A stretch of DNA of 64,000 nt from Protula sp. h YS-2021 (lineage: Eukaryota > Annelida > Polychaeta > Sabellida > Serpulidae): positions 102,906,558 through 102,970,557 of the forward strand of contig OX457025.1 in assembly GCA_949752745.1 (NCBI GenBank). The letters run 5' to 3'. Positions 13,603 through 62,383 of the stretch are shown here, in pieces. The notes below the pieces were generated by a model. The model was not told the origin of the DNA. It saw only the letters and a program-made list of their open reading frames with translations, and did not search any database. The first letter of the stretch is position 1. The number at the start of each line of letters is the position of its first letter. A program made the position numbers and the translations under genes.

Positions 13603-13683
13603 GTTACGTGACCACAAACATGTGTTTATAAGAAAGCAATATACCAACATGTTTATTTGAACATTTGATCTTGAACCGTTAAC

Positions 13684-37980: not shown

Positions 37981-37981
37981 T

Positions 37982-38985: not shown

Positions 38986-39028
38986 TGGTGAGCAGGTTGA
39001 ATGACTAGGGTCTCTAGCATGTCAGGAC

Positions 39029-40830: not shown

Positions 40831-40837
40831 CAACTAA

Positions 40838-41995: not shown

Positions 41996-42044
41996 CAAAT
42001 GGCTTAAAGGCGAATCTCTTGAGATCTTATCAGATAAAAATCTT

Positions 42045-42057
42045 AAGAAGGGGCGTG
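42045..42057 (+). other. Polypurine tract before the 3' LTR
   Basis: AAGAAGGGGCG directly precedes the TGTCA that starts the 3' LTR, the expected plus-strand primer position. Confidence 0.6.
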
Positions 42058-45265: not shown

Positions 45266-45267
45266 CT

Positions 45268-45771
45268 TCAGTTGCATTGAAGCAGTAACAACGCGTCGCA
45301 TATCGCAGTGCCTATCGGTTTTGAACAGTCGCTGTTAAGGTACTGTGCGTGTCTGGGACGCTGTGTGCGTTCTTCTCTGGTGAATCAGCATTTCACGGTA
45401 CATTACGCGTTGTGCGCTACGTCCTTGCTACCGTGAAGTTTCGGGTCAAAGTACTGTGCGTATCGGGCTATTTGTGGGAGTTTCGCCGTGGAACAGTGTC
45501 AGGTACACCGCAGGGTGTGAGACATTTTGTAGGTATTTATTTATTTATTTAGGTATTTATTTATTCATTTATTTATTTGTGTTTTATTTATTTATCTAGC
45601 ATGTGCTGTGGGCAGGCCTGTGATAATGTTGGTTTAAATGGCTGGATTATATCATATTTATTGGCGTTATTATAAATAAAATCCTTGTTGTTTAAATATC
45701 TGGCTTTTCACTGTGTTTCTTTGACTACCGACCACTCATTTGCTCATCTGGCCCAAAACTCATCCGTGACA
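45268..45771 (+). repeat. Partial 5' LTR of gypsy 2
   Basis: Collinear with 34,679-35,761 of gypsy 1 without the MITE, including the ~225-bp segment missing from the 3' LTR of gypsy 1. A TTTATTTATTTA run at about 45,535-45,600 is longer than in the other copies. Confidence 0.8.
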
Positions 45772-48026
45772 TCGTGGCGAGCCTGCCCGGATGGGCAAAA
45801 TTTAAGCCGTAGTCTGGAAATATAGTGATAATTTACTTTCGGTACGGGCAGTAGTAGTATTTTGGCATATATTTTGAGATATATCTGTGATATCTCGTAT
45901 ATTGTGAGATATATCTGGGATATCTGTTAGGGAAAGCGATTTAATTTAGTGGCTCTTTGTCACCCCCTCCTTTTCCCCTTTTTTCCTCTCCTCTTTCCCA
46001 TCTACCTTCCCCCCCTTTCGAAACACGAAAAACAGTTGAGTGTCACATAGTGGTTTTTTGCTGCTGTGTATGTGCAGCGTTTAAAGGCTGGCAGTGGCCT
46101 ATTTAGCAGCATGTAAACAAAGCTCTACGCTGAGAATCGATCAATGTGCTTGAAGCAAGGCATTGCAGAGTGAAGGCCTGTTGTTTTAAGTAAACGGTAT
46201 TTTAGGAGCTGCGCCTCCTTGCAGTCAGTGCCTTTACTTTGCGGCCACAGCAAATGTTTTTTTGGGTTGAAAGAAGCTGTGTATCCGTTCAGCGTAAGTC
46301 GCCATGTTTATGATAAAATGACGGTACTTTTGGTGTGTTAGTCGTGGGTGAAAAGGGGTTCGATCAATTTACTATTGCAATAAACTAGAAAGGCGGACAG
46401 CCTTGTCCCCTTCTAAAAAAAAATAAAAAGTTACTGCCTTTTGATCAAATTTAACTAAATGTTGACTTGAGCGTCAGTATAACCCCCCTCCCCCGCCCTT
46501 GCTATTGTATTTTTTAATGTAAGGTAGAGTTACTTCAGTTATTTAAATTAATTGTGTGAGGGAATGTGCCGATACACAAGAGTTGTCGCAAAGCAAAATG
46601 GATTCGAGGAACCTGTGGTTTTAAGTGACTGCTATTGTGATCTGCGTTTTCCGTCAGTCAGTGGTTAAGGGACAATCAATAGCGGACGGTTTTTTTGGTT
46701 GAGAGAAATGTGTATCTCTTTAGCGTTAGGTTGATGGTTAAACGAAGGTTCTAAAAAACTGGTTTCCTCTCTTCTGATTTAAAAAAACAAGACAGTTGCT
46801 TCGGTGGAAATAGAAAGTATTGCATAAAGAGAATTCTACTAACCTTAAGAGGTTCTTTTCAAAAAAAGAGTGACCGTATCCCCCTTCTAAAAAACATTCA
46901 GAAGATTCTGCCTGTTGATCAACTTTAATCAAATGTTGACCTGAAAATCAGTCTTAACCCCTACCCCGGTTCCCACCCTTTTTATTGTTATATTGACGGC
47001 GTAAGCGTGTGATTTTGGCGCACAGTTAGTGGAATATACGCTGGAGTACGGCGTTATTTTTTTTTTTGGAGTTTGGTTTCTGTGAGGTGTGGTTGTGGAA
47101 GTGAAGCGGAATCGGGCTGTGTCACGATAAAATGTATATGAAAGGGTTGCGTCATGGTCAGAATGATCTGTATTTTCAAAGGTTTGACGTGTGCCTTGAG
47201 GAAGGAGTGAAACAGTGGCAGGTTATATCACGGTAAAGTGTACGCGTGCGGATAGTTTCACGATAACCGTGCCACAGACATAAAGTGGATGCCTTTAAAG
47301 TGATTTAAACGTGAAGTCGATACAAGTATTATTCCGTTAATAACCAGGTGCATTGAAAAGGTTTTGAGTAGAGGAACATACGTGCTCCGCATTTCTGTGA
47401 CGGCCAGGTACTGATATCTTGTGTATATATATGGCGGCGGATGTTATGTTCAACCATTGATGTGCGCGATTATATAAAAAAAATATTGGTGCAGTGCATA
47501 TCGTTGACTAAATGTGTGTGGATTATAGTTTAATCCTGTTTTGTGCGCTATCGGGAGACTACCTTGGTTTATACATGCAAGTGTGGCATGTGAAGTGTAT
47601 ATGTGTGCTAGCCGGTGAATTGCATATTGCACCTCGTGATTTAGGGTATTATCAGACTATTTTTTTCTAGTTTAGGAGCTTGTCTGTGACTTTCTCTAAA
47701 ACATTGGTTAGTCCGATGACCTGTTGGCATAGGGCTTAGTTGTGACATGTATGGTTGTATTGACGTGTCTGGTACTTTGCTATTGTCAACTGGTGATTAG
47801 TCTGGCAGATGTCTTGATTGGTTTAGCTAGTCGGGTGCATGATTTTGCCTGGTTTGGCCAGGTGGGCTTCTGTTAGTCTATGACTCAGGTTAGTCTGGGG
47901 ACTGCAGTGGTTATTGATTAGTCTATTAGTAAGCGTAGGCTAATTGTTGCCCTAAGTTCTTTTAGCTAGTGATAGTGTGCTGTTGCTTAAGCGTGTGCGA
48001 AGCTTAAGTGGTATGAAACATTAGGT

Positions 48027-48788
48027 ATGGCAACGCCAAAGGATGATGCCGAGGGCTTCGGTCAGAAGGCAGTTGAGTTGAGGATGACCTTAGATCAAAT
48101 TATGGAACTAGGTAGGCAGGTTAATCTGGATGGCGAGTTTTGTAAAGGATCAACAAGCTGTTGAAAGAGAAGATAGGGCAAGTCGTTGTGCGATGGAAAA
48201 AGAGTTTGAAGCTTTGGCTTTAGAGAGAGAAAAACCGAACATGACAAAGCCATGCTAAACATGCAACTGAGAGACTCTGAATTGCAATTAAAATTAGTCA
48301 GGGCTACTCACGTTGATGGTACAATGCAGCAATTCAGTTCAAATGGAGTTTTACCAAAACTTCCAAAATTAAATTGTGATAAGGATGACATGGACTCTTA
48401 TATTCTTAGGTTTGAACGTTATGCTACAGCTCGGCGTTGGTCTCGTGATAGGTGGTGTGTCTCTTTAGGTGCGTTACTTGGAGGGAAGGCTCTAGAAGTT
48501 TATGCTAGACTGCCTGATGAGCATGTAAACAACTATGCAAAGTTGAAAGGGGCATTGCTTCAAAGATTCCAACTAGATGAAGAAGGGTTCAAAACCAAAT
48601 TTAACAGTGTCAGGCAAAGGAAAGAGGAGAGTTTTTCTCAGTTCTTTTCAAACAAAAGGTGTTTTGGCTGTGGTCAATCAGGACACATCAAATACAGATG
48701 TCCAAATAAGAAACAAGGTTTGGGCAACATAGCTGTTTCTGAGAATGGTGGTAGATCTGGTGATAGAAATTTTGCGTGTGTTGAATGA
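48027..48788 (+). pseudogene. gag of gypsy 2 (frameshifted, internal deletion)
   Basis: The ATG at 48,027 begins MATPKDDAEGF. A frameshift lies before the long ORF at 48,252-48,788. That ORF carries a capsid-like segment (DMDSYILRFERYATARRWS, ALEVYARLPDEHVNNYAKLK) and a complete CCHC knuckle CFGCGQSGHIKYRCPNK (C-x2-C-x4-H-x4-C). Compared with gypsy 1, the region between the capsid and the knuckle is deleted in frame (after SQFFSNK). The role was genome packaging. Confidence 0.8.
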
Positions 48789-48812
48789 CTAGGGTCTCTA
48801 GCATGTCATGAC

Positions 48813-49110
48813 ATGGATCCAAAGTTGATGCAAAGGTTAGATATTCAACCAGGAAAACTTAACTCTATCCCAGTACAAGTTATGAGGGATACAGGTTGTA
48901 CAACAGTGTTTGTTCATTCTCGATTGGTGACAGACAATCAGTGAACAGGTGAAAGAAGAAAGTACTTCATGGTAAATGCTTCATCCGATTACGCAAGGGT
49001 AGCTAAGGTACAGTTGGAATGTCCATGGTTTGTTGGTGAGATAGAAGCTTTATGGTTAGATACGTTAGTATGTGATGTGGTGATGGGAGGTCTCCAACAA
49101 AGTGAATGAT
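48813..49110 (+). pseudogene. Aspartic protease of gypsy 2
   Basis: Has the same VQVMRDTGCTTVFVHSRLV active-site segment as copy 1, followed by an in-frame stop at about 48,942 and then VKASSDYARVAKVQLECPW-like sequence with FVGEIEALWLDTLVCDVVMGG. One premature stop is the main defect. Confidence 0.7.
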
Positions 49111-50280
49111 CAGACAATATCAATGGTCAAAGATTCATTTAAGCCGGTCAAATCTTTGAAAGTACTTGAAAGTAGTTTAAATCTTAGTATTAAACCAGAA
49201 GAGTTTAAAGCAGAACAGCTTAGCGACAAGTCGTTGGACAAAGCATGGAAAAATAGTGAATCAAACAAGCAAAGAAAATTAGGCAATACTGAGACATGGT
49301 TTGAAATACGCAATGGTTACTTGTACAGATGTTTCACCTCAGCGAAAGTAGATCCCGACAAGGTGTTCGTTCAGCTTTTGGTACCCAGTAAGTTCAGAAA
49401 AGGTGTTTTAGAATTGGCTCATAATTCTGTTTTGGCAGGACATTTAGGTGCAGAGAAAACTTACAACAAGGTAGCTGAAAACTTATTTTGGCCAGGCCTT
49501 AGAGCAGACGTAGTTCGCTATTGTAGCTCGTGTGAAGTTTATAAGAAAACTGTCTCGAAAGGGTTGGTTAGGAGTGTTCCATTGGAAAACCTGGGTTTAT
49601 AGCTGTTCCGTTTCAAAGGATTGCAATAGACATAATAGGACCGGTTAGTGAAAGAGGCAATAGATATATCCTCACTTGTGTAGATTATGCAACGAGATAT
49701 TCAGAAGCAGTAGCTTTACCAAGCATTGAGACAATTTGCGTAGCAGAAGCTTTAGTAGGAATTTTCTCTAGGGTAGTTGTACCAAAGCAAATAGTTTCAG
49801 ACAATGGTTCGTCGTTCTCATCTGAAATGATCTTAGGAATCGATTGGAGGAAACATGCAAATTAGCTCAAAAGGAGTTAGAATGTGCACAAGAAACATAC
49901 AAGAAACATTTTGACAAATCAACTAGACCTCGGAAGTTAGAAACAGAAGACCAAGTTTTGTTACTTTTAACGACTGATCACTGATACTGCAATGGAAAGG
50001 CCCATATCTAGTGAAAGGAAAGGTAGGATTAAATGACTATCTAATCGAAATTAATGGCAAAGACAAACTGTACCACATCAACATTTTGAAGAAATTCTAC
50101 ACGGTAGAAGATGACGGTCAGAAATCAAGTTTAGGTTGTGCCGTGGGTACAATATTAGAAGATGAAACCGAAGCAACACTTGGTGACAATCAAATGTGGA
50201 CAACACGACAAAAGACCAAGAAACCTATCGTAAATATTAATCCAGACTTAGATCCAAAACAAAAAGAAGAGCGAAAATAA
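49111..50280 (+). pseudogene. Integrase of gypsy 2, upstream of RT, with core deletion
   Basis: HHCC domain at 49,430-49,560 (LAGHLGAEKTYNKVAENLFWP, CSSCEVYKK, where the last Cys is replaced by Tyr). The core YILTCVDYATRYSEAVALPS and IVSDNGSSFSSE follow at 49,665-49,830. The sequence then jumps directly to LRNRLEETCKLAQKE, so the part with the catalytic Glu is deleted (about 0.5 kb compared with copy 1). The C-terminal part is intact at 50,011-50,280 (GLNDYLIEINGKDKLYHINI). Confidence 0.8.
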
Positions 50281-50282
50281 CT

Positions 50283-51125
50283 AATTAAGAATATGAAGTG
50301 ATCTTTCCATCAAAACCAGGGAAATGCAATATGTGGACTTGTGACATAACTTTGGCAACAGACAAACCAATCAGGACTAAGCAATACCCAATACATTTTG
50401 CAGTGATTGGCGAGTGTAAATCGGAAATAGAAGAGATGATATAATCAGCCATTATAGAACCATCCAATTCTCCTTATCGTGCATCAATAGTTGTTGTTAG
50501 GAAAAAGGACAATAGTTTGCGAATCTGCACAGACCTTAGAGCATTAAATCGAGTTACGAAATTCAATGCAGAACCAATGCCAAACTCAAATGAAATATTT
50601 GCGAAATTACATGGGTGCAATTATCTTTCGAAAATGGATTTTTCCAAAGGCTATTACCAAATCCCTCTCACCCAAGCTGCAAAAGGAAAGACTGCTTTTT
50701 GCACTCCGTTTGGCTTATATCAATACAGATTCATGCCTTTTGGCTATGCTAACGCGGTTAGTGAATTCAAACAAATGATGAGAACGCTTCCCTATGGGTT
50801 GGAACAGGTTGATAGCTTTGTGGATGATGTTCTGACTTGCACAGTTTTGTGGAAAGAGCAGTTGCGGGTTCTCAAAAGTGTCTTCGAAAGAGTCTTGAAG
50901 GCTGGTTTGATAGTGAAACCATCCAAGTGTTTCTTCGGTTATCAGAAATTGGACTTTGTTGGTCACAAGGTAGGACAAGTCGAACTCAGTACTTTAGAGG
51001 ACAAGGTTGAAAAGGTTAAAAATGCTCCGTTGCCGGAACATAAAACTCAGCTTCGTTCGTTCTTAGGTTTGGCTAACTACTATAGGCAAGTTTGCCCGAA
51101 CTTTGCCAGCATTGCGGCACAGGCC
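50283..51125 (+). pseudogene. Reverse transcriptase of gypsy 2, truncated
   Basis: The long ORF 50,517-51,143 contains LRICTDLRALNRVTKFN, LSKMDFSKGYYQIPL, YRFMPFGYANAVSEFKQMM and the active-site block SFVDDVLTCT (V-D-D, the usual gypsy Y/F-V/I-D-D), then KPSKCFFGYQKLDFVGHKVG and LRSFLGLANYYRQVCPNF. Upstream, a stop at about 50,443 breaks it. Similarity ends near 51,125 and no RNase H follows. Confidence 0.85.
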
Positions 51126-51725
51126 AAATTCACGACACCCTAAGCATGCCTCAGGCCAAAAATAAATGATGTTTGATCAAAACTGCAGGAGAAAATGCAT
51201 TCTGAGGTATTTGCATCAAAAATTCCTCCGTAATAAAAAATTCCCAAGTCGAGTCAAATAGCACAAGCCGTATGCGTATCAAATGTTACAAGCAAACCTC
51301 GTTGTTATTTATTTATTAATTTAAAGCCAAAGACAAAAGATAAGTTACGTATTCGCACAGAAAGCTTACCAAGTGATACATATTACGTTTATGTGAAATA
51401 ACAGTGTATGAAAAAAATTTGTTTGGTATTGAAAGTGAAGATGTCTAGAGGAATCAACTATTTATTCATTTAACAGCCGTAAATTCTTATTGAAGCAAGC
51501 CACAAAAGATGAATTAGTTAGTTTTATTTGAAATACGTTCGAACACATTGCATGGACATTTATCATTGAAGTCACATATGTATAAAAAATAAAGCATGAA
51601 CAACAAACTATTCGACTATTGGGGGATAGAAAAACTTCCTTTGAAAGTAAAAAGAAATAGATTAATGAGAATAGATTTATTTGCAAGATATAATTGCAAG
51701 AATTAAGCTTCCATTATTAGCTCAG
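51126..51725. other. Unique AT-rich sequence between gypsy 2 and the long-armed element
   Basis: No gene or repeat recognised. Homology to the gypsy element ends at about 51,125 and the inverted arm starts at 51,726. Confidence 0.5.
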
Positions 51726-51768
51726 TAGTAGTTGAAAAACGAGAGTTCTGGCCCAAAAATTGGCGCCA

Positions 51769-52165
51769 AAATGACGTCACAGGGTGGGCCAGAACTCTCA
51801 TGAGAGTTCTCGCCCAGATGGTAATTGAAAGAGCGCGCGCCTGTATGAATGACGTCATAATGAGGTCATCATGACATCATTAGTCACGTGACATGTCAAT
51901 CATGTGTCACGTGTCATGTGTCACGTGTCATGTGTCAATCATGTTATGTAGCTCCCACCGTATATGAGGACTATTTTCCCGATCAATAACCTTCTGGCCG
52001 GAATGGCTCAGTCGGTAGAGCATAGGACTCGTAAGCGGAAGCATGATCTGAAGGTCGGTGGTTCGAGCCCGCCCTCCGGCACTACTTTCACTTTCTGTCA
52101 ATCATATCATTTAGGTTGTCAAAGTGAGTCTTTAGTCACGTGACCTGTCAATCATATGTCACGTG
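51769..52165 (+). promoter_or_regulatory. CRE and E-box cluster in left arm
   Basis: Perfect CRE palindromes TGACGTCA occur at 51,772 and 51,850. CACGTG E-boxes occur at 51,885, 51,908, 51,922, 52,137 and 52,160, several as GTCACGTGAC. All are copied in the right arm (60,004-60,430). Seven 6-8-bp palindromic transcription-factor motifs in 400 bp surround the tRNA-like genes. Enhancer activity is inferred from motif density. Confidence 0.5.
51997..52081 (+). tRNA. tRNA-Thr(CGU)-like gene 1, left arm, with 12-nt insert
   Basis: 85 nt. Acceptor GCCGGAA pairs with CTCCGGC except for one A-C, D arm GCTC/GAGC, T arm GGTGG TTCGAGC CCGCC, discriminator A. The anticodon loop is CTCGTAA with CGT at 52,030-52,032. 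Removing 12 nt (AGCGGAAGCATG), which begins one base 3' of the anticodon, restores a standard 5-nt variable loop and a mostly paired anticodon stem (TAGGA with TCTGA). That is the canonical tRNA intron position. No encoded CCA. It may be an intron-containing tRNA or a decaying tRNA-derived sequence. Confidence 0.55.
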
Positions 52166-52234
52166 ACCTATAAATCATGTTTCATGTGGCTCTAATTGTA
52201 TATGAGGACTATTTTCCCAATCATTAACCTTCTG

Positions 52235-52313
52235 GCCGGAATGGCTCAGTGGGTAGAGCATAGGACTCGTAATGCTGATCTGAAGGTCGGTGGTTCAAAC
52301 CCGCCCTCCGGCA
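52235..52313 (+). tRNA. tRNA-Thr(CGU)-like gene 2, left arm, with 6-nt insert
   Basis: 79 nt, the same gene as the one 238 bp upstream, including the preceding TATGAGGACTATTTTCCC flank, so the pair arose by tandem duplication of gene plus flank. The insert after position 37 is 6 nt (ATGCTG), not 12. The T loop is TTCAAAC. Anticodon CGT at 52,268-52,270. Confidence 0.55.
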
Positions 52314-52339
52314 CTACTTTCGATCATATTACTACTCCT

Positions 52340-52455
52340 CAATATTCAGACCCCCCCCGGGTCCTCAATCTTCAGAGACCCCCCCCCCGTCCTCAATATT
52401 CGGAGACCCCCCCTCCCCGTCCTCAATATTCGGAGACCCCCCTCCCCCCCCCCAG
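52340..52455 (+). repeat. C-rich tandem (CCTCAATATTCGGAGACCC type)
   Basis: Four copies of a ~33-bp unit with CCCCCCC tracts of different length; the inverted counterpart is at about 59,750-59,860. Overlapping ORFs in all frames are artefacts of this repeat. Confidence 0.85.
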
Positions 52456-52735
52456 GATGTGATTCCACACTCCTATAAGAGCACATTGTATGTGCACATA
52501 TGCATCATTCAAGCTCTGGCTGCCGTTGGATACACATGGGAAAACAGTTGAAGCAGTTGAAGAACAAGTGAAGGATTGACTTAGGAGACGAAGTGAAACA
52601 TTGACTATTCTTTGGAAAAAGGAAGTGAAACATTAGCTATTCATTGGAAAAGAGAAGTGAAAGATTTGGTTATTCTTTGGAAAAGGGAAGTGAAAGATTG
52701 GAAGACAAATTAACCAATGACTTGTGGTAAGTCAT

Positions 52736-52773
<38 letters not shown>

Positions 52774-52900
52774 TTGAGTTGAAGTGAATTCAAAACTTTG
52801 TAAAATGTTTTTTTGTTTTTTTGTTTTTTTGTTTTTTTTTGAGTTGAAGTGAATTCAAAACTTTGTAAAATGTTTTTTTTTTTTTTTGTAACAATATGTA
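52736..52900 (+). repeat. Poly-T tracts with TTGAGTTGAAGTGAATTC unit
   Basis: T-runs up to about 32 bp alternate with a 38-bp unit containing GAGTTGAAGTGAATTCAAAA. The right arm has three longer A-runs with the same unit (59,263-59,470). Confidence 0.9.
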
Positions 52901-53067
52901 ACATTTTGTAACACAATGTGACACAATGTTACACTATGTTACATCATGTGACACTTTGTTACATCGCGTGACTATGCAACATCATATAGCTATATGACTA
53001 TTGAATTGCTATATGAACATAATTAGTGAAACGTATGTATGTCATTATCAGATCGTTCATCGGGGAA

Positions 53068-53140
53068 GTCGTAATGGCTCACTGGTTAGAGCGAACGACT
53101 AGCAACGTAAGAGCCCCGGGTTCGGTTCCCGGCTGGGACA
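53068..53140 (+). tRNA. tRNA-like sequence, possible Ala(AGC), left arm
   Basis: The T arm is perfect (CCGGG TTCGGTT CCCGG), the D arm is GCTC/GAGC, and the anticodon loop CTAGCAA has AGC at 53,101-53,103. The acceptor (GTCGTAA against CTGGGAC) and the anticodon stem pair poorly, so function is doubtful. It is conserved as an exact counterpart in the right arm (59,011-59,083). Confidence 0.35.
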
Positions 53141-53339
53141 AAAAATTTTTTTTTGGTTATTTTTAGTTTTTGCTCATTTTTATGACTCTGTGACATTATG
53201 TGACAACATGTGACTGTGACATCATGTGACATTATGTGACTCTGTGACTTTTAAAAATTTTTTTTTTATTATTATTATTATTATGATAATATTTAATTAG
53301 TCATATTTCAATGGTTTCCCCATTGCAATAACCACACAT

Positions 53340-53570
53340 AGCATAAGTAAATGTGTACAGAGAGTGGGGGAAAACCGATCGATAAATTCAGAGTGCACTC
53401 GTACAGAGTGTGGGAGAAAAAACCGATCGATAAAATTTCAGAGTGCACTCGTACAGAGTGTGGGGAGGAAAACCGATCGATAAATTCAGAGTGCACTCAT
53501 ACAGAGTGTGGGGGGAAAACCGATCGATAAAATTTCAGAGTGCACTCGTTCAGAGTGTGGGAACGATCAA
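53340..53570 (+). repeat. ~60-bp minisatellite (GTACAGAGTGTGGG..CCGATCGATAAA)
   Basis: Four to five copies contain GAGTGCACTCGTACAGAGTGTGGG and ACCGATCGATAAA. The GAGTGCACTC piece is itself a 10-bp palindrome. Counterpart at 58,595-58,810. Confidence 0.85.
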
Positions 53571-53599
53571 TAAATTGGATGGGATTTTCCTTACGTTAT

Positions 53600-54330
53600 G
53601 TTTTATGTTATAGTAGTTGGATAATGACACTTCTAAAGCACATTTAACAAATATAGTTTTTTAATAATATATAATGTATAAAATAAGTTTTAGTATTTTA
53701 CCATGCTACTTATTCAAATGTTTTAAAGTTATAATAGTGTAAAAATGGTGGTTCTAGATCAACTTTAACAATTTTAGGTTTTGATAACATATGATGTTTA
53801 AAATAGGCTTTAGCATTTTACCAAGCCACTTATTCAAAAGTTCTAAAGTTATAGTAGTGGAAAAATGGTGGTTCTAGACCAAATTTAACAAATTTAGGTT
53901 TTGACAACATATGATATTTAAAATAAGTTTGAACATTTTTACCATGTTGTAGTAGTGAAAAAATGGTGGTTCTAGATCAACTTTAACAATTTTAGGTTTT
54001 GATAACATACGATGTTTAAAATAGGTTTTAGCATTTTACCAAGCCACTTATTCAAAAGTTCTAAAGTTATAGTAGTGGAAAAATGGTGTTTCTAGACCAA
54101 ATTTAACAAATTTAGTTTTTGACAACATATGATATTTAAAATAAGTTTGAACATTTTTACCATGTTGTTGTAGTAAAAAAATGGTGGTTCTAGATCAACT
54201 TTAACAAATGTAGTTTTTTTGGCAACATATGATGTATAAAATAAGTTTTAACATTTTACCATGTTGAAGTAGGGGAAAAATCAGGGGTCTAAACCAACTG
54301 TAACAAATTTTGTTTTTACACATTTCAGAC
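53600..54330 (+). repeat. ~120-bp degenerate tandem (TCTAGATCAACTTTAACA)
   Basis: About six diverged copies contain AAATGGTGGTTCTAGATCAA, ACATATGATGT and TAAAATAAGTTT. Counterpart at 57,840-58,560. Confidence 0.85.
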
Positions 54331-54418
54331 GATTCTACCACTTGGTTGGTTGATTGTTGGAAAATGGGAAGTGAAAATGTGGATAGTTATGTAGGAAAAC
54401 TGCGCCCATTCAAATGTG

Positions 54419-54510
54419 TTCGAATGGCAAGCCCATTTAAAAGACGTGTTCGAATGGCAAGCCCATTTAAAAGACGTGTTCGAATGGCAAGCCCATTTAA
54501 AAACACGTGT
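54419..54510 (+). repeat. 30-bp unit x3 (CGAATGGCAAGCCCATTTAAAA)
   Basis: Three head-to-tail copies, translating to a repeated FEWQAHLKDV in one frame. Counterpart at 57,655-57,745. Confidence 0.95.
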
Positions 54511-54545
54511 TAGAATAATTTTTGGAAGATATTACGTCGTGGTAT

Positions 54546-55200
54546 TGTTCAACAAATTGTTCAACATGTTCAACATGTTCAGCAAATTGTTCAACATGTT
54601 GTTGTTCAACATGTTCAACATGTTCAACAAGTTCAACATGTTCAACATGTTCAACAAATTGTTCAACATGTTCAACAAATTGTTCAACATGTTCAACATT
54701 TTCAACAAATTGTTCAACATGTTCAACATGTTCAACAAATTGTTCAACATGTTGTTGTTCAACATGTTCAACAAGTTCAACAAGTTCAACATGTTCAACA
54801 AGTTCAACATGTTCAACATGTTCAACATGCTCAACAAATTGTTCAACATGTTCAACATGATCAACAAATTGTTGAACATGTTTAACATGTTCAGCAAATT
54901 GTTCAACATGTTGTTGTTCAACATGTTCAACAAGTTCAACAAGTTCAACATGTTCAACAAGTTCAACATGTTCAACATGTTCAACATGCTCAACAAATTG
55001 TTCAACATGTTCAACATGTTCAACATGTTCAACAAGTTCAACAAATTGTTCAACATGTTCAACATGTTCAACAAGTTCAACATGTTCAACATGTTCAACA
55101 TGTTCAACAAGTTCAACATGTTCAACAAGTTCAACAAATTGTTCAACATGTTCAACATGTTCAACATGTTGTTGTTCAACATGTTGTTGTTCAACAAGTT
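54546..55200 (+). repeat. TTCAAC(ATG/AAG/AAATTG) array, 655 bp, left arm
   Basis: A mosaic of 9-bp TTCAACATG, TTCAACAAG and 12-bp TTCAACAAATTG words. Higher-order blocks of about 190 bp are duplicated (54,585-54,850 against 54,890-55,010). The right arm has only about 207 bp (57,411-57,617). Frames give FNMFNKF, LNMLNNL or STCSTN repeats, which are not proteins. Confidence 0.95.
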
Positions 55201-55201
55201 G

Positions 55202-55210
55202 TATATAAAG
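55202..55210 (+). promoter_or_regulatory. TATA box, left-arm copy of the zinc-finger promoter
   Basis: TATATAAAG, 62 bp before an ATG (55,264) that opens MYTCNICSKS and then meets a stop. It is the duplicate of the functional-looking promoter at 57,399-57,407. A GT immediately after the arm boundary (CTTG|GTAAAG, 55,295) resembles a splice donor. Confidence 0.5.
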
Positions 55211-55332
55211 CTATGTTTAAAGACTTTCTCATCATTTGAATAGTGTAGGTTGAACCGAAAGGATGTATACATGCAACATTTGTTCGAAATCTTGGTAAAG
55301 TTATTTCTAAACATATTAAGACAACTATAAAG

Positions 55333-55355
55333 TATAAAAGGCAGCCGCTCTCAGA
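55333..55355 (+). promoter_or_regulatory. Core promoter of the PC4-like gene
   Basis: TATAAAAG at 55,333-55,340 with a CTCAGAC initiator-like sequence about 15 bp downstream, 40-60 bp before the ATG at 55,395. It lies in the unique centre just inside the left arm. Confidence 0.6.
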
Positions 55356-55394
55356 CGTAACACACATTCTGTATCAAGATACTGAAGAGTGAAC

Positions 55395-55958
55395 ATGTCT
55401 GCAGTGAGCGAACAACTACCATCTATGACAATGGTTCTAGAAAAGTCTGAGACAATGCCTGCAGAGCATTTTACAGTAAAGCCTGAGACAATACCTACAG
55501 CAAAGTCTAAGGCAATGCCCATGGTAAAGTCTGAGGCGAAGTCACGTCAACAGCGTCAAAAGCGACCACATCTTAGAAAGATAAAAAGAGATGAGTTACC
55601 AGCTATGACGCCGTCGTGTAAAAAGCGAAAAATTAAGACAGAGCCTCAAATGAAGCGAGAACCAGAGCGTAAAGCTGCTACCACCATGAAGAATATGAGT
55701 GTAGACGATTTACCGGTTATGATACCTATTAATGGAGAAATATATATTAAATTGGCGAAATATCAACAGAAAGTGATGGTTAACATTCGTGAATATATTA
55801 CGGGTCATACATCTGGGAGGTTACATCCTACCAAGAAGGGAATTTTGCTGTCATTGAACGATTGGCACATGTTGAAGAAGCAAATAACGGCAGTGGATCT
55901 CATGCTTCAGAAAATGGATCTGTATAAATGCAGTGACTGTCAGAAGATGGTTGAGTAG
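55395..55958 (+). CDS. PC4/p15-like transcriptional coactivator domain protein
   Basis: Encodes 187 residues from the first ATG (MSAVSEQLPSM). Residues 1 to about 100 are a basic, low-complexity region: repeated E-T-M/K-S-E units (LEKSETMPAEHF, VKPETIPTAKSK, VKSEAK), then KKRKIKTEPQMKREPERK, a likely nuclear-localisation region. The C-terminal part (about 110-175) matches the PC4 (SUB1/p15) single-strand DNA-binding fold: YIKLAKYQQKVMVNIREYI, then LHPTKKGILLSLNDWHMLKKQI. The last piece carries the family's KKGI.L....W..L signature. Ends CSDCQKM. PC4 proteins bind single-stranded or melted DNA and stimulate transcription. Own TATA box; poly(A) signals at 56,110 and 56,280. A broken homologue lies at 63.6-63.9 kb. 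Confidence 0.8.
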   Translation: MSAVSEQLPSMTMVLEKSETMPAEHFTVKPETIPTAKSKAMPMVKSEAKSRQQRQKRPHLRKIKRDELPAMTPSCKKRKIKTEPQMKREPERKAATTMKNMSVDDLPVMIPINGEIYIKLAKYQQKVMVNIREYITGHTSGRLHPTKKGILLSLNDWHMLKKQITAVDLMLQKMDLYKCSDCQKMVE

Positions 55959-56109
55959 ACAGCGAGGTGACTGTATATAACAGCATGACGAGCTTAGTGG
56001 ATGCTATGATTTCATCACCCTCAGTGTCGAAGATTGGAGCGAAGGTTTTGAAGCTTGACAAGAACTTAGCTTTGACTCATATGGACATAGACATTTGATA
56101 TGTAGTTCA

Positions 56110-56115
56110 AATAAA
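56110..56115 (+). terminator. Poly(A) signal of the PC4-like gene
   Basis: AATAAA 152 bp after the stop. A second AATAAA is at 56,280-56,285, beside the opposing signal of the zinc-finger gene. Confidence 0.55.
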
Positions 56116-56309
56116 ATTGTCTTCATATGTAGACTATGAAATTAACATGATCTATGTTCATGTGAAGTCAGTTGTTATAAAATTTTAAGTTATTTTCTTG
56201 TGAATATGCGCATGTATTAATATAATATGTATTTGAAATAGTTTTGTTTTTATCATAATTGTACATATTTGTAATATTCAATAAAAACACATATGATGCT
56301 TTTCAACTT

Positions 56310-56315
56310 TTTATT
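56310..56315 (-). terminator. Poly(A) signal of the zinc-finger gene
   Basis: TTTATT on the plus strand (AATAAA on the minus strand), 300 bp after the zinc-finger stop and 25-30 bp from the plus-strand AATAAA at 56,280. The two transcripts therefore end tail to tail. Confidence 0.5.
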
Positions 56316-56323
56316 TTTCTCAT

Positions 56324-56440
56324 ACAATACTTGGATATAATACATAATAAAACAATACTTGAATATAATACATAATAAAACAATTCTTGAATATAATACA
56401 TAATAAAACAATTCTTGAATATAATACATAATAATACAAA
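56324..56440 (-). repeat. 28-bp tandem repeat x4 in the zinc-finger 3' UTR
   Basis: Units start at 56,324, 56,352, 56,380 and 56,408 with ACAAT(A/T)CTTG and are followed by AATATAATACATAATAAA. Spacing is exactly 28 bp with no unique spacers. Confidence 0.9.
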
Positions 56441-56614
56441 ATCAACTATAATACCTAATATATGATATATAGTTTACCGGTCAATTAAAACCGCTTCAGG
56501 AACCTTACGACTTTATACGTTGCAAAGCAAGACATATATTAATACACAACGCTTAAGTTAATAAAATATTACAACATTTATAAAGTCTTTATCATAAAGT
56601 TTAGTCAAATAAGT

Positions 56615-57346
56615 CTATTTTTCTTCATCTGTTTCACTCTGTTCACTCTCCATGCCACTTTCTTCATCACTGCTGTCATCCTCCTCTTCATTATCTAGAA
56701 GCTCTTCAAAGAATGCATTGTTTTTCCTTATAGCCGCCTTTAGTGCCTTTGAATACTTGTAATGTTTTTCATCCACAAAGTAAGTAAAGTCCTTTAAAAT
56801 CTTTTGATAATGTTGGCTTTGTTCTAGACGCTGGGTATATTTGAATAGTCTCATAAACAGTTGTTTTAGTCCATGCTTATAAATGGCTCGAAGGTCATAG
56901 CTTGCTATCTCTCGCGCATCTTCAAGTCCTTGTTCTTCATATTCTAAAACATTTTCTTGAAATTTGTCATCATAGTCATCGTAGACTTCTTGAACCATAT
57001 CATACCAAACAGAGTCTATTTTTGACTCACTTTCAGAGTCTGTTTCTGACTCACTTTCAGAGCTGCTGTCACCAGCATCCTCACCACACTGCCCCATATG
57101 TTTGAGCAAAGCTTCTTCGCTGTTGTATAATGCACCACATTCTGTACAAGCATGTGCATTCTTTTCAGCCATGTTAACGCTTTCACTTTCCATAGAAGAC
57201 TCATCTAAAGTTTCCGTGAAAGGTAGTTTTACAGGGTTTTCTATATCTGATTCTTCATCCACATCTGACGTGTGAGCAACCTTTAAGTGTCTTTTAAGAC
57301 TTTGTGGCCAACTGTAAGATTTCGAACAAATGTTACATGTATACAT
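56615..57346 (-). CDS. C2H2 zinc-finger protein with acidic tail (Polinton-associated family)
   Basis: Encodes 243 residues. Finger 1 is YTCNICSKSYSWPQSLKRH then H (residues 2-25, C-x2-C-x12-H-x4-H). Finger 2 is ACTECGALYNSEEALLKHM (about 66-85), whose last ligand appears to be Cys (GQC). A Ser/Glu-rich linker (SSSESESETDSESES) follows. A predicted helical region (about 115-215) has WYDMVQEVYDDYDD, ARE..YDLRAIYKHGLKQLF, YQKILKDF and YSKALKAAIRKNN. The end is strongly acidic (DNEEEDDSSDEES). The finger-plus-helical-plus-acidic layout is shared with the broken gene at 13.7-14.6 kb. It may bind DNA and activate transcription of the element; this is inference. Promoter and first 10 codons lie in the inverted arm. 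TATATAAAG is about 53 bp upstream of the ATG. Confidence 0.8.
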   Translation of the reverse strand: MYTCNICSKSYSWPQSLKRHLKVAHTSDVDEESDIENPVKLPFTETLDESSMESESVNMAEKNAHACTECGALYNSEEALLKHMGQCGEDAGDSSSESESETDSESESKIDSVWYDMVQEVYDDYDDKFQENVLEYEEQGLEDAREIASYDLRAIYKHGLKQLFMRLFKYTQRLEQSQHYQKILKDFTYFVDEKHYKYSKALKAAIRKNNAFFEELLDNEEEDDSSDEESGMESEQSETDEEK

Positions 57347-57398
57347 CCTTTCGGTTCAACCTACACTATTCAAATGATGAGAAAGTCTTTAAACATAG

Positions 57399-57407
57399 CT
57401 TTATATA
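57399..57407 (-). promoter_or_regulatory. TATA box of the zinc-finger gene (right arm)
   Basis: TATATAAAG on the minus strand, about 53 bp before the ATG at 57,346, giving a 5' UTR of roughly 25-30 bases. Confidence 0.55.
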
Positions 57408-57410
57408 CAA

Positions 57411-57617
57411 CTTGTTGAACAACAACATGTTGAACATGTTGAACATGTTGAACAATTTGTTGAACATGTTGAACATGTTGAACAATTTGTTGAACATGTT
57501 GAACTTGTTGAACATGTTGAACATGTTGAACTTGTTGAACATGTTGAATATGTTGAACAACAACATGTTGAACAATTTGCTGAACATGTTGAACATGTTG
57601 AACAATTTGTTGAACAA
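57411..57617 (-). repeat. TTCAAC array, right-arm copy (207 bp)
   Basis: Same 9- and 12-bp words as in the left arm, but less than a third of the length. It directly adjoins the TATA box, so array length changes the distance between upstream arm sequences and the promoter. Confidence 0.95.
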
Positions 57618-59010
57618 TACCACGACGTAATATCTTCCAAAAATTATTCTAACACGTGTTTTTAAATGGGCTTGCCATTCGAACACGTCTTTTAAATGGG
57701 CTTGCCATTCGAACACGTCTTTTAAATGGGCTTGCCATTCGAACACATTTGAATGGGCGCAGTTTTCCTACATAACTATCCACATTTTCACTTCCCATTT
57801 TCCAACAATCAACCAACCAAGTGGTAGAATCGTCTGAAATGTGTAAAAACAAAATTTGTTACAGTTGGTTTAGACCCCTGATTTTTCCCCTACTTCAACA
57901 TGGTAAAATGTTAAAACTTATTTTATACATCATATGTTGCCAAAAAAACTACATTTGTTAAAGTTGATCTAGAACCACCATTTTTTTACTACAACAACAT
58001 GGTAAAAATGTTCAAACTTATTTTAAATATCATATGTTGTCAAAAACTAAATTTGTTAAATTTGGTCTAGAAACACCATTTTTCCACTACTATAACTTTA
58101 GAATTTTTGAATAAGTGGCTTGGTAAAATGCTAAAACCTATTTTAAACATCGTATGTTATCAAAACCTAAAATTGTTAAAGTTGATCTAGAACCACCATT
58201 TTTGTCACTACTACAACATGGTAAAAATGTTCAAACTTATTTTAAATATCATATGTTTTCAAAACCTAAATTTGTTAAATTTGGTCTAGAACCACCATTT
58301 TTCCACTACTATAACTTTAGAACTTTTGAATAAGTGGCTTGGTAAAATGCTAAAGCCTATTTTAAACATCATATGTTATCAAAACCTAAAATTGTTAAAG
58401 TTGATCTAGAACCACCATTTTTACACTATTATAACTTTAAAACATTTGAATAAGTAGCATGGTAAAATACTAAAACTTATTTTATACATTATATATTATT
58501 AAAAACTATATTTGTTAAATGTGCTTTAGAAGTGTCATTATCCAACTACTATAACATAAAACATAACGTAAGGAAAATCCCATCCAATTTATTGATCGTT
58601 CCCACACTCTGAACGAGTGCACTCTGAAATTTTATCGATCGGTTTTCCCCCCACACTCTGTATGAGTGCACTCTGAATTTATCGATCGGTTTTTCTCCCC
58701 ACACTCTGTACGAGTGCACTCTGAAATTTTATCGATCGGTTTTTTCTCCCACACTCTGTACGAGTGCACTCTGAATTAATCGATCGGTTTTCCCCCACTC
58801 TCTGTACACATTTACTTATGCTATGTGTGGTTATTGCAATGGGGAGACCATTGAAATATGACTAATTAAATATTATCATAATAATAATAATAATAAAAAA
58901 TTTTTTTAAAAAGTCACAGAGTCACATAATGTCACAGTCACATGTTGTCACATAATGTCACAGAGTCATAAAAATGAGCAAAAACTAAAAATAACCAAAA
59001 AAAAAATTTT

Positions 59011-59083
59011 TGTCCCAGCCGGGAACCGAACCCGGGGCTCTTACGTTGCTAGTCGTTCGCTCTAACCAGTGAGCCATTACGAC
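59011..59083 (-). tRNA. tRNA-like sequence, possible Ala(AGC), right arm
   Basis: Exact mirror of 53,068-53,140, with the same strong T arm and weak acceptor and anticodon stems. Confidence 0.35.
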
Positions 59084-59262
59084 TTCTCTGATGAACGATC
59101 TGATAATGACATACATACGTTTCACTAATTATGTTCATATAGCAATTCAATAGTCATATAGCTATATGATGTTGCATAGTCACGCGATGTAACAAAGTGT
59201 CACATTATGTAACATAGTGTAACATTGTGTCACATTGTGTTACAAAATGTTACATATTGTTA

Positions 59263-59313
59263 CAAAAAAAAAAAAAAAAAAACATTTTACAAAGTTTTGA
59301 ATTCACTTCAACT

Positions 59314-59345
<32 letters not shown>

Positions 59346-59435
59346 ATTTTACAAAGTTTTGAATTCACTTCAACTCAAAAAAAAAAAAAAAAAAAAAAAA
59401 AAAACATTTTACAAAGTTTTGAATTCACTTCAACT

Positions 59436-59470
<35 letters not shown>
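59263..59470 (-). repeat. Poly-A tracts with GAATTCACTTCAACTC unit
   Basis: Three A-runs of 18-32 bp separated by a ~38-bp unit; counterpart of 52,736-52,900 but with one more unit. The lysine-rich ORF here is an artefact. Confidence 0.9.
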
Positions 59471-59472
<2 letters not shown>

Positions 59473-59882
59473 TGACTTACCACAAGTCATTGGTTAATTT
59501 GTCTTCCAATCTTTCACTTCCCTTTTCCAAAGAATAACCAAATCTTTCACTTCTCTTTTCCAATGAATAGCTAATGTTTCACTTCCTTTTTCCAAAGAAT
59601 AGTCAATGTTTCACTTCGTCACCTAAGTCAATCCTTCACTTGTTCTTCAACTGCTTCAACTGTTTTCCCATGTGTATCCAACGGCAGCCAGAGCTTGAAT
59701 GATGCATATGTGCACATACAATGTGCTCTTATAGGAGTGTGGAATCACATCCTGGGGGGGGGGTCTCCGAATATTGAGGACGGGGAGGGGGGGTCTCCGA
59801 ATATTGAGGACGGGGGGGTCTCTGAAGATTGAGGACCCGGGGGGGTCTGAATATTGAGGAGTAGTAATATGATCGAAAGTAG

Positions 59883-59961
59883 TGCCGGAGGGCGGGTTTG
59901 AACCACCGACCTTCAGATCAGCATTACGAGTCCTATGCTCTACCCACTGAGCCATTCCGGC
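59883..59961 (-). tRNA. tRNA-Thr(CGU)-like gene 2, right arm
   Basis: Mirror of 52,235-52,313, 79 nt, with the 6-nt insert after the anticodon. Confidence 0.55.
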
Positions 59962-60114
59962 CAGAAGGTTAATGATTGGGAAAATAGTCCTCATATACAA
60001 TTAGAGCCACATGAAACATGAATTATAGGTCACGTGACATATGATTGACAGGTCACGTGACTAAAGACTCACTTTGACAACCTAAATGATATGATTGACA
60101 GAAAGTGAAAGTAG

Positions 60115-60199
60115 TGCCGGAGGGCGGGCTCGAACCACCGACCTTCAGATCATGCTTCCGCTTACGAGTCCTATGCTCTACCGACTGAGCCATTCCGGC
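60115..60199 (-). tRNA. tRNA-Thr(CGU)-like gene 1, right arm
   Basis: Mirror of 51,997-52,081, 85 nt, with the 12-nt insert after the anticodon. Confidence 0.55.
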
Positions 60200-60380
60200 C
60201 AGAAGGTTATTGATCGGGAAAATAGTCCTCATATACGGTGGGAGCTACATAACATGATTGACACATGACACGTGACACATGACACGTGACACATGATTGA
60301 CATGTCACGTGACTAATGATGTCATGATGACCTCATTATGACGTCATTCATACAGGCGCGCGCTCTTTCAATTACCATCT

Positions 60381-60410
60381 GGGCCAGAACTCTCATGAGA
60401 GTTCTGGCCC
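60381..60410. repeat. 30-bp perfect palindrome near the right tip
   Basis: A 15-bp half-site GGGCCAGAACTCTCA is followed at once by its reverse complement. The left arm has the same palindrome at 51,786-51,815 with one mismatch near its end (CGCCC instead of GGCCC). A further inverted half-copy, GAGAGTTCTGGCCC, lies 30-45 bp toward each tip. Confidence 0.9.
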
Positions 60411-60496
60411 ACCCTGTGACGTCATTTTGGCGCCAATTTTTGGGCCAGAACTCTCGTTTTTCAACTACTATTTTATAAAAATTAAGCATGCATTGA

Positions 60497-61257
60497 AAAT
60501 GACACTTATTTGTGAATCAGAATATAGAAAATTATTATCAAGTCAACCTTCAAATTATGATACTAAAGCTAAAGTAAAAAAGTAACGAAACTGCCACAGA
60601 AATATCTAAACTTCTTGATCGCCATTTAAGAACAACTAAATTACAAAATTAAAAATTTGCTGTAACAGTTGCTGCAGAAAAGTAAGAGAAGTCACAACGC
60701 TTAACATTTCTTAACCATTTTCCATCTATACATCATGTGAAAGCAACACAACTTCTGTCAGAACTTAAGAAGATGGTACAGGAGGGATAGATAAGAATGA
60801 ACGTGTTGAAAACTGTAGATGTAATTCAGATTTCTAACATTATTGATTTACTGAAAGAGGCATATTACCACAAGGATGGAAACAGTTTATTCAGGAAATT
60901 GTGGATGTTAATATGCCAAAAAAACTGTTTTTGGTAAACAGGCAACTCGTGAAGATTTACAAAAGAAATGAAACAGTATCAGAAGACAGTTTCCAGAAGG
61001 ATGGGAAAATATTTCAGTTTTCTAGAAAGAGGGTAAAATATTTTATACAGTTCTGTTGGTGTTTGCAGGAAAATGAAGGTACAACTCATATCCCTGTAAA
61101 AAGATATCAAAGTGCTTATTGTCAAGAAGAAATAATAAACAGCAACAGAGTGGAACATGCAGGCAGTGTACGTAGTGCATGTAACACACGTAATACACGC
61201 AATGTAAATGGTGTGAACGGCACGCCATCAGTCCGTCAACGTGCACATACGATCTAG
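60497..61257 (+). pseudogene. Polinton-associated ORF remnant upstream of capsid genes
   Basis: Frame-broken plus-strand segments: a helical piece (FLNHFPSIHHVKATQLLSEL, about 60,700-60,765) and PQGWKQFIQEIVDVNMPKKL (60,868-60,930, continuing into the ORF at 60,901-61,257). A small protein with a conserved W-x-x-F..I-x-x-x-N-V/M-P motif commonly lies near the capsid genes in invertebrate Polinton-like elements, but I am working from recollection of the pattern. Multiple stops. The 61,130-61,255 tail is repetitive (NTRNTRNVNGVNG) and doubtful. Confidence 0.45.
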
Positions 61258-61261
61258 TCAT

Positions 61262-61723
61262 CATGGATTCAACATTTTTTTACATTACTTTGGGAAGTAA
61301 TGCTAGCATAAATTGTTATCCTACTAATAAAACTTCTAATTATGAAATTCATTTGCGCCGTACATTATATTGAAAGTGAAATATGAAGTGGTCTAGCTGA
61401 AATTCAATACCCACATACATGAACGACAATGAGGCAAGGAATGGACTATTGATTGTCGATTATCATTAGATGCTACGTTTCATGAAGTTACTATTCCATA
61501 TGATTACTATAGATCCATCTTTGAAATATATGATGGCGTAAATGAAGAATTATCAGTATCTATTTATGCAAGTCCTATTCCGTTGAAGTATTATGAAATT
61601 AGATGAAGAGTTTTTCATATTTAAAAAAAATGGTCGTAACCATTTCCTTCATCAAGTGAGTGGAAATTTGCCAGGTTATACATGCAGCATGCAATATGGA
61701 AGTTGTATTGGTTTATTCTTGGG

Positions 61724-61732
<9 letters not shown>
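61262..61732 (+). pseudogene. Penton-like minor capsid protein remnant of a Polinton-like virus
   Basis: Starts with an ATG, then FYITLGSNASINCYPTNKTSN (61,270-61,335), which fits the N-terminus of the Polinton/adintovirus minor capsid (short jelly-roll) family, where S-N-A/S-S..Y-P-N-N..SN is usual. The continuation has AEIQYPH (about 61,400), YDYYRSIFEIYDGVNEEL (61,500-61,555) and [17 protein letters not shown] (61,675-61,725), in shifting frames. It ends in the (AG)n tract, so its C-terminal part is missing. Inactive. Confidence 0.55.

Positions 61733-61811
<79 letters not shown>
61727..61811 (+). repeat. (AG)42 microsatellite at a capsid-gene junction
   Basis: An 85-bp uninterrupted AG run. 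The end of the minor capsid and the start of the major capsid are both missing across it, so it marks an internal deletion of the provirus. Confidence 0.97.
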
Positions 61812-61813
<2 letters not shown>

Positions 61814-61825
61814 TTTTAAGCCTTT

Positions 61826-62383
61826 CGCAAACTGAGCACTAGTACAAGTATTTTGTTAGGACATACAGATGCATTGATGAAAAATTCTGCCAAGTTTTCT
61901 ATTACCCGAAAAGAACAAAATATTTTAGCCATTCGAGATAAATTTCAATCATTTGTGAAAGATAACATCTCTTTGGGTCAATTACCAAAACGTATTGCAA
62001 TTGTTGAGGATCTTACTGAAGCCTTTGTTGGAACAGTGTTGAGAAATCCATACAATTTTGAGTATGTTAATGTTCACCACATGAAAGTTTACACTAATGG
62101 TGAACCAGTCCTATCCAAACCCCTTAAGCTCAACATTGGTAAAGAAAAATATCTTGACGCTTTTGAAACTCTTTGCGAATCCTTTGATCAATTGAATGGT
62201 GGGAAAGGCTCTTTTATAAAAAGGAAAATTTGGTCTAGAGGTTATGCTTTATTTTCTTTCAACGTAAGAGCTGATTATGCTAGAGATGATCATTATTCCT
62301 TTACCAAAAATCGAAATCTGCGGTTAGAGATGAATTTTGCCGGTGTCGTGCAAAATACAGTTAATGTCATAGTCTATCGCTAA
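61826..62383 (+). pseudogene. Major capsid protein, C-terminal part (Polinton/adintovirus, F54H12.2-like)
   Basis: The longest open segment runs to 62,383 (ATG-like start at 61,853, but homology begins earlier at about 61,826). It shows the C-terminal half of the double-jelly-roll major capsid family known from C. elegans F54H12.2 and from Polintons: [73 protein letters not shown] and LRLEMNFAGVVQNTVNVIVY. The first half of the protein is absent, so this is a 5'-truncated relic even though the remaining frame is open. Confidence 0.65.

Follow-up and report, generated by a model that had tools for sequence, protein, structure and literature searches.

What kind of mobile element consists for three quarters of its own inverted arms? 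The question is raised by an 8.74-kb element in a 64,000-nt stretch of the Protula sp. h YS-2021 genome (C2:102906558-102970557; this whole stretch is called the window below). Our analysis shows that the element belongs to a multicopy family scattered through the genome, which has Maverick-type ends and 6-bp target duplications, arms that are alike within each copy, and ends shared with elements of about 20 kb. We consider it likely that it is a non-autonomous, gene-carrying satellite of Polintons (Mavericks), for which we infer a helper. By its ends and footprint it is Polinton-like, by its genes it is not a Polinton, and because it combines Polinton ends and footprint with only two regulatory genes, it probably travels on the machinery of a larger element. 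The element and its arms are laid out as follows.

51727-60469, no strand assigned: whole element, 8.74 kb, with the ends 5'-AGTAGT...ACTACT-3'
51726-55293, plus strand: left arm (terminal inverted repeat, TIR), 3.57 kb
53355-53561, plus strand: 48-bp tandem array of the left arm, mirrored at 58601-58807
53631-54261, plus strand: 120/218-bp repeats of the left arm, mirrored at 57901-58564
54546-55173, plus strand: 9-bp TGTTCAACA array adjoining the core, mirrored at 57421-57616
55173-55293, plus strand: inner end of the left arm, with the mirrored zinc-finger promoter region and first ~10 codons
57316-60470, minus strand: right arm (TIR), 3.16 kb

An earlier note on this DNA had described mirror-image arms of these two lengths around a 2.0-kb centre with convergent genes, all of which is borne out by alignment and by the open reading frames (ORFs), two of which converge in the centre. 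The arms are ~99% identical, the innermost repeat array excepted, and contain mirror-order blocks that are perfect or near-perfect, for example 702 nt and 635 nt at 100%. In a global alignment of arm against arm we counted 22 mismatches as far as window position 54,737, plus indels that fall mostly within repeats; from that position the 9-bp arrays of the two arms are out of register. Tandem Repeats Finder resolved about eight array types in the left arm (units of 28, 32, 65, 10/20, 48, 120/218, 30 and 9 bp) with counterparts in the right arm; the earlier note had counted seven sub-repeats per arm. The arms extend ~30 nt into the zinc-finger ORF, so that the promoter region and initial codons of this gene recur in mirrored form in the left arm; TATA-like strings, found by eye and candidates only, lie at 55202-55209 and 55333-55339. 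MicroRNA matches of the 9-bp array in Rfam fell far under their cut-offs and were taken as repeat artefacts, and left-arm DNA had no match in phage records.

Searching the 863-Mb assembly with the core gave matches at 89-100% identity in at least 41 places, a lower bound that comes from the best 40 of 3701 candidates scored; two of the 41 rows are pieces of one copy on C6, and some rows are partial. We studied 21 copies, 20 fetched and the window copy, some of whose cores are 98-99% alike and which, where measured, span 4.9-8.7 kb. Both ends could be located in 19 of them (not in L011 and L024) and read AGTAGT or AGTAGG, except for the left end of L025 (AGAAGG). Once L009, which has the window copy's flanks, L014, L015 and L018, which have those of L013, and the two copies L011 and L024 are left out, 15 independent insertions remain, 10 of which have exact 6-bp target duplications: nine were found by script (GATGGT, TTTGTT, TTTCTC, ATTCAG, TCGAGT, AGTTTT, AAGAAG, GTTGGC and TTTGTG) and the tenth, GATATT of L025, was read by hand. 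Partial duplications were seen in L010 and L019 (5/6), L020 (4/6) and L026 (shifted). With shuffled right flanks, exact duplications came to a mean of 0.59 and a maximum of 5. A TA duplication, considered for the self-complementary TA with which the arms as first mapped start, is ruled out by the AGTAG ends and the 6-bp duplications. The shared flanks of L013, L014, L015 and L018 are partly 97-100% alike over ~2 kb; judging from these flanks, the satellite is there copied along inside another dispersed repeat.

The flanks of the 15 independent insertions differ, from which it follows that arm homology stops at the ends of the element. The earlier note, which had proposed that further copies with the same ends be sought and aligned, had allowed for a single copy in the genome or for homology that runs on beyond the arm ends, and neither was found. 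The window copy does share its flanks with L009, ~225 kb away (left 575 bp at 100%, right 584 bp at 99%), which means that its locus was duplicated, whether in the genome itself or during assembly; taken by itself, this locus might suggest an assembly palindrome or a single inverted-duplication event. For the family as a whole, such an origin is excluded by the number of core matches and by independent insertions with different flanks and different arm lengths, and we regard its probability as negligible.

Very long, internally repetitive inverted arms are also described for Foldback, Galileo and Tetris elements in the portions of that literature at hand, and arms of this sort would also fit a Foldback-type element mobilised by a cut-and-paste enzyme from a different transposase superfamily. 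Foldback and Galileo elements have a P-type or MULE-type transposase and a longer duplication. The present family differs from them in end sequence and in duplication, no transposase gene was recognised in it, and Pfam found no transposase domain in either core protein. In an excerpt of PMC8097293, vertebrate Mavericks are given the ends (AGT)2//(ACT)2 and 6-bp target duplications; the window copy's ends are exactly that motif, and with AGTAG ends and 6-bp duplications being Maverick features by this partial source, a Foldback-type origin is largely excluded and very improbable.

Larger elements, too, are bounded by the ends of the satellite. Matches to a 34-place tip pattern number 716 in the forward and 745 in the reverse direction, against 0 in a reversed control. 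Among the 100 places listed (C1, 0-40.77 Mb), 35 neighbouring pairs are convergent, one of 1.8 kb, 10 of 5.3-8.4 kb and 24 of 14.8-35.4 kb, with the large pairs clustering near 17.3 and 20.5 kb, and four neighbours within 60 kb are divergent. The exact 34-bp tip of satellite L027 occurs at 61 places, in pairs of ~1.7-2.1, 5-8, 14 and 20-23 kb. Its terminal 90 bp, at up to 3 mismatches, occur at 98+88 = 186 places, 100 of which are listed; among these they bound pairs of 19.6, 19.7, 20.6 and 40.0 kb as well as pairs of 6.2-8.0 kb, and the same 90-bp end is found on other copies with the same core. The three pairs near 20 kb are located at C6:17458855-17478418, C2:20951839-20971529 and C5:3183352-3203929, in order of length. 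With 90-bp and 34-bp ends on both short and ~20-kb pairs, the same ends delimit two or more size classes.

Polintons are abundant in this genome, with at least 84 PolB matches, at least 93 and at least 150 capsid matches (two queries) and at least 112 integrase matches. A capsid gene lies inside two C1 tip pairs of 17.3-17.9 kb (11974780-11992676 and 34387335-34404612), in identical orientation and 8.3 and 8.0 kb from the left tip. As to the full Polinton with the same ends that the earlier note had looked to, 90-bp ends do stand on ~20-kb elements, but a capsid gene was located only in the two 17-18 kb pairs. As a separate observation, 47 capsid matches (on C3, C2, C4, C6 and others) span all of the 468-aa query at 99-100% identity, and just three of these are interrupted by a stop, which is a sign of very recent Polinton activity; each of the three has a single stop. 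Several short tip pairs on C1 are uniformly 7.7-8.0 kb. The pairs C2:95460498-95462171 (1.7 kb) and C8:37571025-37573122 (2.1 kb) have the exact satellite tip and, to judge by their size and tips, could be gene-less miniature members, true miniature inverted-repeat transposable elements (MITEs) of this system.

The core between the arms contains two genes.

55395-55958, plus strand: PC4-domain gene, 187 aa (Pfam PF02229)
56615-57346, minus strand: C2H2 zinc-finger gene, 243 aa, whose C-terminal part is acidic

The pairing of a PC4-like with a zinc-finger gene, also claimed before, is confirmed by Pfam, in which the first protein matches PF02229 at E=5.6e-11 and the second has two C2H2 fingers; the PC4 domain additionally matches PC4 structures at 1.7e-6. 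The remaining ATG ORFs of at least 60 aa lie within repeats or tRNA-like parts or overlap the two core genes in other frames. No protein-primed PolB or retroviral-like integrase gene, and no capsid, ATPase or protease gene, was recognised in the element from the ORF list and the Pfam results for the two core proteins. As the earlier note had held, the element is neither a full Polinton, since these five kinds of gene are missing, nor a MITE, since it carries two genes. Neither core protein had a relative at E 0.001 in a set of 5.8 billion proteins, in a search that needs shared 5-residue words; viral contigs held no relatives by peptide patterns or by tip, and PHROGs gave weak matches only. 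Own regulatory genes, long repeat-rich arms and the match to PC4 structures would also suit an independent small DNA virus or episome that uses host polymerases, with PC4 and zinc-finger proteins as origin factors, and is Polinton-like in its integration route only. We think this improbable, given that no replication or capsid gene was recognised in the element and that its ends are within 3 of 90 bases of those of the ~20-kb elements.

Counting flank-sharing duplicates, 17 of the 21 copies have a PC4 ORF of at least 178 aa, and 10 of the 21 a full-length zinc-finger ORF of at least 243 aa. The median dN/dS of the zinc-finger gene is 0.37 (111 pairs with dS >0.05, which are not independent), and the gene is under purifying selection. 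In L011 and L012, the PC4 frame enters from upstream (236 aa) through the mirrored zinc-finger start region, and members of this subfamily may therefore encode a longer PC4 protein. The zinc-finger protein resembles the C-terminus of a Polinton ORF of the same genome (here the ATPase-ZF ORF, which we read from its sequence as a putative packaging ATPase), with hhalign giving 95.8% and E 7.3e-9 over 162 columns that take in the second finger and the C-terminal part of the zinc-finger protein, and blastp giving 8e-5 in a very small set. The two are probably kin, a grade that we keep because the comparison profile is shallow. The Polinton ORFs read, from a small part of the genome's Polinton DNA, held no notable PC4 match (best E 0.41).

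This kinship, the ends common to the satellite and the ~20-kb elements, and a PC4 gene that is weakly constrained (see below) could together be explained by a plain internal-deletion derivative of one Polinton, passively carried and with genes that have no role. Such a derivative is hard to reconcile with a zinc-finger ORF that is under purifying selection and full length in nearly half of the copies, with a PC4 ORF that most copies keep, or with Polinton ORFs that show no notable PC4 match, and we hold it to be unlikely. The satellite reading is further informed by the tips, the arms and the tRNA-like genes. Each tip carries one 14-bp motif three times.

51741-51815, no strand assigned: left tip, 14-bp motif GAGAGTTCTGGCCC three times (direct at 51741, inverted at 51786, direct at 51802, one mismatch)
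60381-60455, no strand assigned: right tip, 14-bp motif GAGAGTTCTGGCCC three times

At up to two mismatches, GAGAGTTCTGGCCC has 6 matches in the window versus 0.10 expected. Every copy has its 14-bp motif at positions 15-28, then inverted, and then direct again at 76-89. Averaged over 13 copies, the inverted motif agrees with its own tip at 13.2 of 14 positions and with the tips of other copies at 9.5, and the direct motif at 12.8 and 9.2, respectively; this level of own-tip matching was reached by 0 of 5000 permutations. The best-matching place was taken per copy for both motifs, which somewhat favours own matches, and for the direct motif that place was 76 in 13/13 copies. Judged from sequence alone, pairing is possible between the two inner motifs, and also between the tip and the inverted motif. 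Tips do not track cores: L016 and L019 have cores 98.8% alike and tips that agree at 26/33, and L016 and L023 have cores 95.0% alike and tips that agree at 33/33. We interpret this mismatch as an exchange of the putative recognition motif. In most of the copies displayed, the bases that follow the motif (CAGGAAGTGACGTCATAATGACGTCA) resemble one another, and TGACGTCA is the CRE sequence.

Arm modules of eight copies were compared with the left arm of the window copy. The inner modules (48-bp array, 120/218-bp repeats, 30-bp and 9-bp arrays) keep the same order in all eight, with repeat numbers that vary, and the outer parts are more divergent: L010, L013 and L017 have little or none of the window copy's outer third, and L016, L021 and L022 have an extra 48-bp array close to the tip. 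In 12/12 copies without a flank-sharing duplicate, the copy's own two arms are more alike than either is to the left arm of whichever compared copy came closest. This count leaves out the window copy, L009, L013 and L015, each of which is closest to a duplicate with shared flanks; the comparison took in no L014, L018, L025, L011 or L024 and, between copies, left arms only. In adenovirus-like panhandles, one end is copied from the other during linear DNA replication, and the likeness of arms within copies would fit such copying of end from end during replication of a linear molecule.

The tRNA-like genes of the arms are also mirrored.

51997-52081, plus strand: tRNA-like gene 1, left arm (Rfam 41.5 bits)
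52235-52313, plus strand: tRNA-like gene 2, left arm (Rfam 45.6 bits; also ARAGORN)
53068-53140, plus strand: tRNA-like gene 3, left arm (Rfam 27.0 bits, below the cut-off of 29)
59011-59083, minus strand: tRNA-like gene 3, right arm (below the Rfam cut-off)
59883-59961, minus strand: tRNA-like gene 2, right arm (above the Rfam cut-off)
60115-60199, minus strand: tRNA-like gene 1, right arm (above the Rfam cut-off)

Three such genes per arm had been proposed, of which the first two hold and the third falls just under the cut-off. Nine of 13 further copies scanned reach the Rfam tRNA cut-off (15 hits). Box conservation was counted on full-length hits only, 29 of which reduce to 20 distinct rows; left out were hits that do not span the window's first tRNA-like gene, including those of another type in L010, L013-L015, L017 and L018. 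All 20 distinct sequences of the first type contain an A-box (TGGCNNAG, one or two bases, GG) and a B-box (GWTCRANNC), which we take to be the Pol III consensus. Six of the seven acceptor pairs are kept in all 20, the fourth pair being G-C in 4, U-G in 14 and U-A in 2. The seventh acceptor pair is unformed in 20/20, a few rows have broken T-stem pairs, and the window copy's sequences show an irregular anticodon arm; we therefore call them tRNA-like and not evident tRNAs. Six Polinton pieces (27 kb, a small part of the genome's Polinton DNA) had no Rfam hit, a further point against a deletion derivative.

Several results weigh against a Polinton satellite. The window copy itself is without a target duplication (CTCAGT / ATTTTA). 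PC4 may be little constrained, because its dN/dS has a median of 0.73 (105 pairs with dS >0.05, not independent) and a mean of 1.37 between the window copy's subfamily and one other. Polinton genes within tip pairs were counted at places on C1 below 40.77 Mb, where the large pairs hold only 2 of the 18 capsid places of the larger capsid search, a count reached in 393 of 20,000 random rotations, and 0/5 capsid places of the other query, 0/3 PolB places and 0/7 integrase places. Searches that score only the best candidates located no gene within the ~20-kb pairs that have 90-bp ends, for which reason this absence is not strong. The small number of Polinton-gene places in tip pairs implies several Polinton lineages here without the tip pattern, and 18 kb of Polinton pieces L041-L044 had no satellite-like tip. 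Core matches lie in 1 of 10 short C1 pairs of the 34-place pattern (from the best 40 of 3701 core candidates) and, among the core matches listed, in 3 of 8 short pairs with the exact 34-bp L027 tip, in one of the 8 tabulated short pairs with 90-bp ends and in none of 8 others; of the four core matches on C1 0-40.77 Mb, one is inside a short tip pair. Other short elements with the same ends probably exist, and the pairs for which no core match is listed concern how large the wider tribe is; the reading of the satellite's ends and duplications is unaffected by them. Lastly, the satellite is known here from its DNA alone.

We propose that a full Polinton would supply integrase and protein-primed polymerase in trans, and that the AGTAG tip would be recognised by these enzymes together with the 14-bp motif, which is specific to each copy and present three times per end. 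The element would be copied as linear DNA, its arms thereby being re-equalised, and would then be inserted. Its zinc-finger protein and its PC4-like single-stranded-DNA-binding protein may help transcription or replication, and the tRNA-like genes may give Pol III/TFIIIC sites within the arms. Of the earlier idea of a small gene-bearing element that borrows from a Polinton, integration is supported, and replication probably so, by the ~40 core matches, the Maverick-type ends, the 6-bp duplications and the 90-bp ends on ~20-kb elements, with a helper that we infer. Far more tentatively, and with some doubt, we suggest a satellite-helper system of two selfish DNAs within a single eukaryote genome, in which the regulators kept by the element (PC4 and zinc finger) and its tRNA-like genes of Pol III type would be combined with an exchangeable motif that names the permitted Polinton lineage. 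A tip exchange would then change the helper, and change of helper is likewise a trait of the molecular parasites of viruses.

The surroundings of the window copy contain further traces of Polintons.

60471-62383, plus strand: degraded Polinton capsid region in the flank outside the element, with a major capsid protein (MCP)-like ORF at 61820-62383

The MCP-like ORF has 18 database relatives at 44-64% identity. It shares 50% identity with the capsid ORF on one Polinton piece from the same genome, and another ORF of that Polinton matches the nearer piece of the right flank. The MCP-like ORF had no relative in viral contigs, and Pfam found nothing for four capsid relatives. This remnant was duplicated along with the flanks (C2:102743704, 99%), and a penton-like fragment was seen by eye near 61264. 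Elsewhere in the window, a zinc-finger/low-complexity ORF at 13675-14463, expanded by a simple repeat, looks by eye like the ATPase-ZF ORF of Polinton L042 (CPKC...FSRKDAMLRH start). Inverted arrays of ~325-bp repeats lie ~5 kb apart at 27014-28939 and 33749-34405, and 37012-51143 contains two direct copies of a retroelement-like region (Gypsy-like by eye), ~9.5-10 kb apart and 85-92% alike in the stretches listed.

Polintons, which are seen as standing near the origin of many DNA viruses of eukaryotes, usually measure 15-20 kb and have TIRs of 100-1000 bp; the satellite, in the copies measured, is shorter and has far longer arms. It further differs in having no recognised polymerase, integrase, ATPase, protease or capsid gene and in carrying PC4 and tRNA-like genes. 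Common to both are terminal inverted repeats, a zinc-finger protein probably of Polinton kin and, by the excerpt of PMC8097293, AGT-type ends and 6-bp target duplications. MITEs are likewise moved in trans by a larger relative, as the satellite would be, but the satellite carries two genes, one of them under purifying selection. Transpovirons have inverted terminal repeats and few genes of their own, as does the satellite, which may similarly depend on a larger element; the satellite differs in its integrated copies with 6-bp duplications, in its location within a large eukaryote-like genome and in its other genes. A transpoviron is a mimivirus-associated linear episome of ~7 kb (PMC7031253, in part), and thus of similar size, whereas the satellite is known here from integrated copies alone. 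Among the open-access titles and abstract openings listed, and in the portion of PMC6431247 at hand, none names a gene-bearing Polinton satellite.

A family of at least ~40 copies beside many near-identical Polinton genes would make both the dependence of a satellite and the recognition of its ends testable, and the covariation of the tip motif within copies marks this sequence as a candidate for recognition by the machinery of replication or integration.

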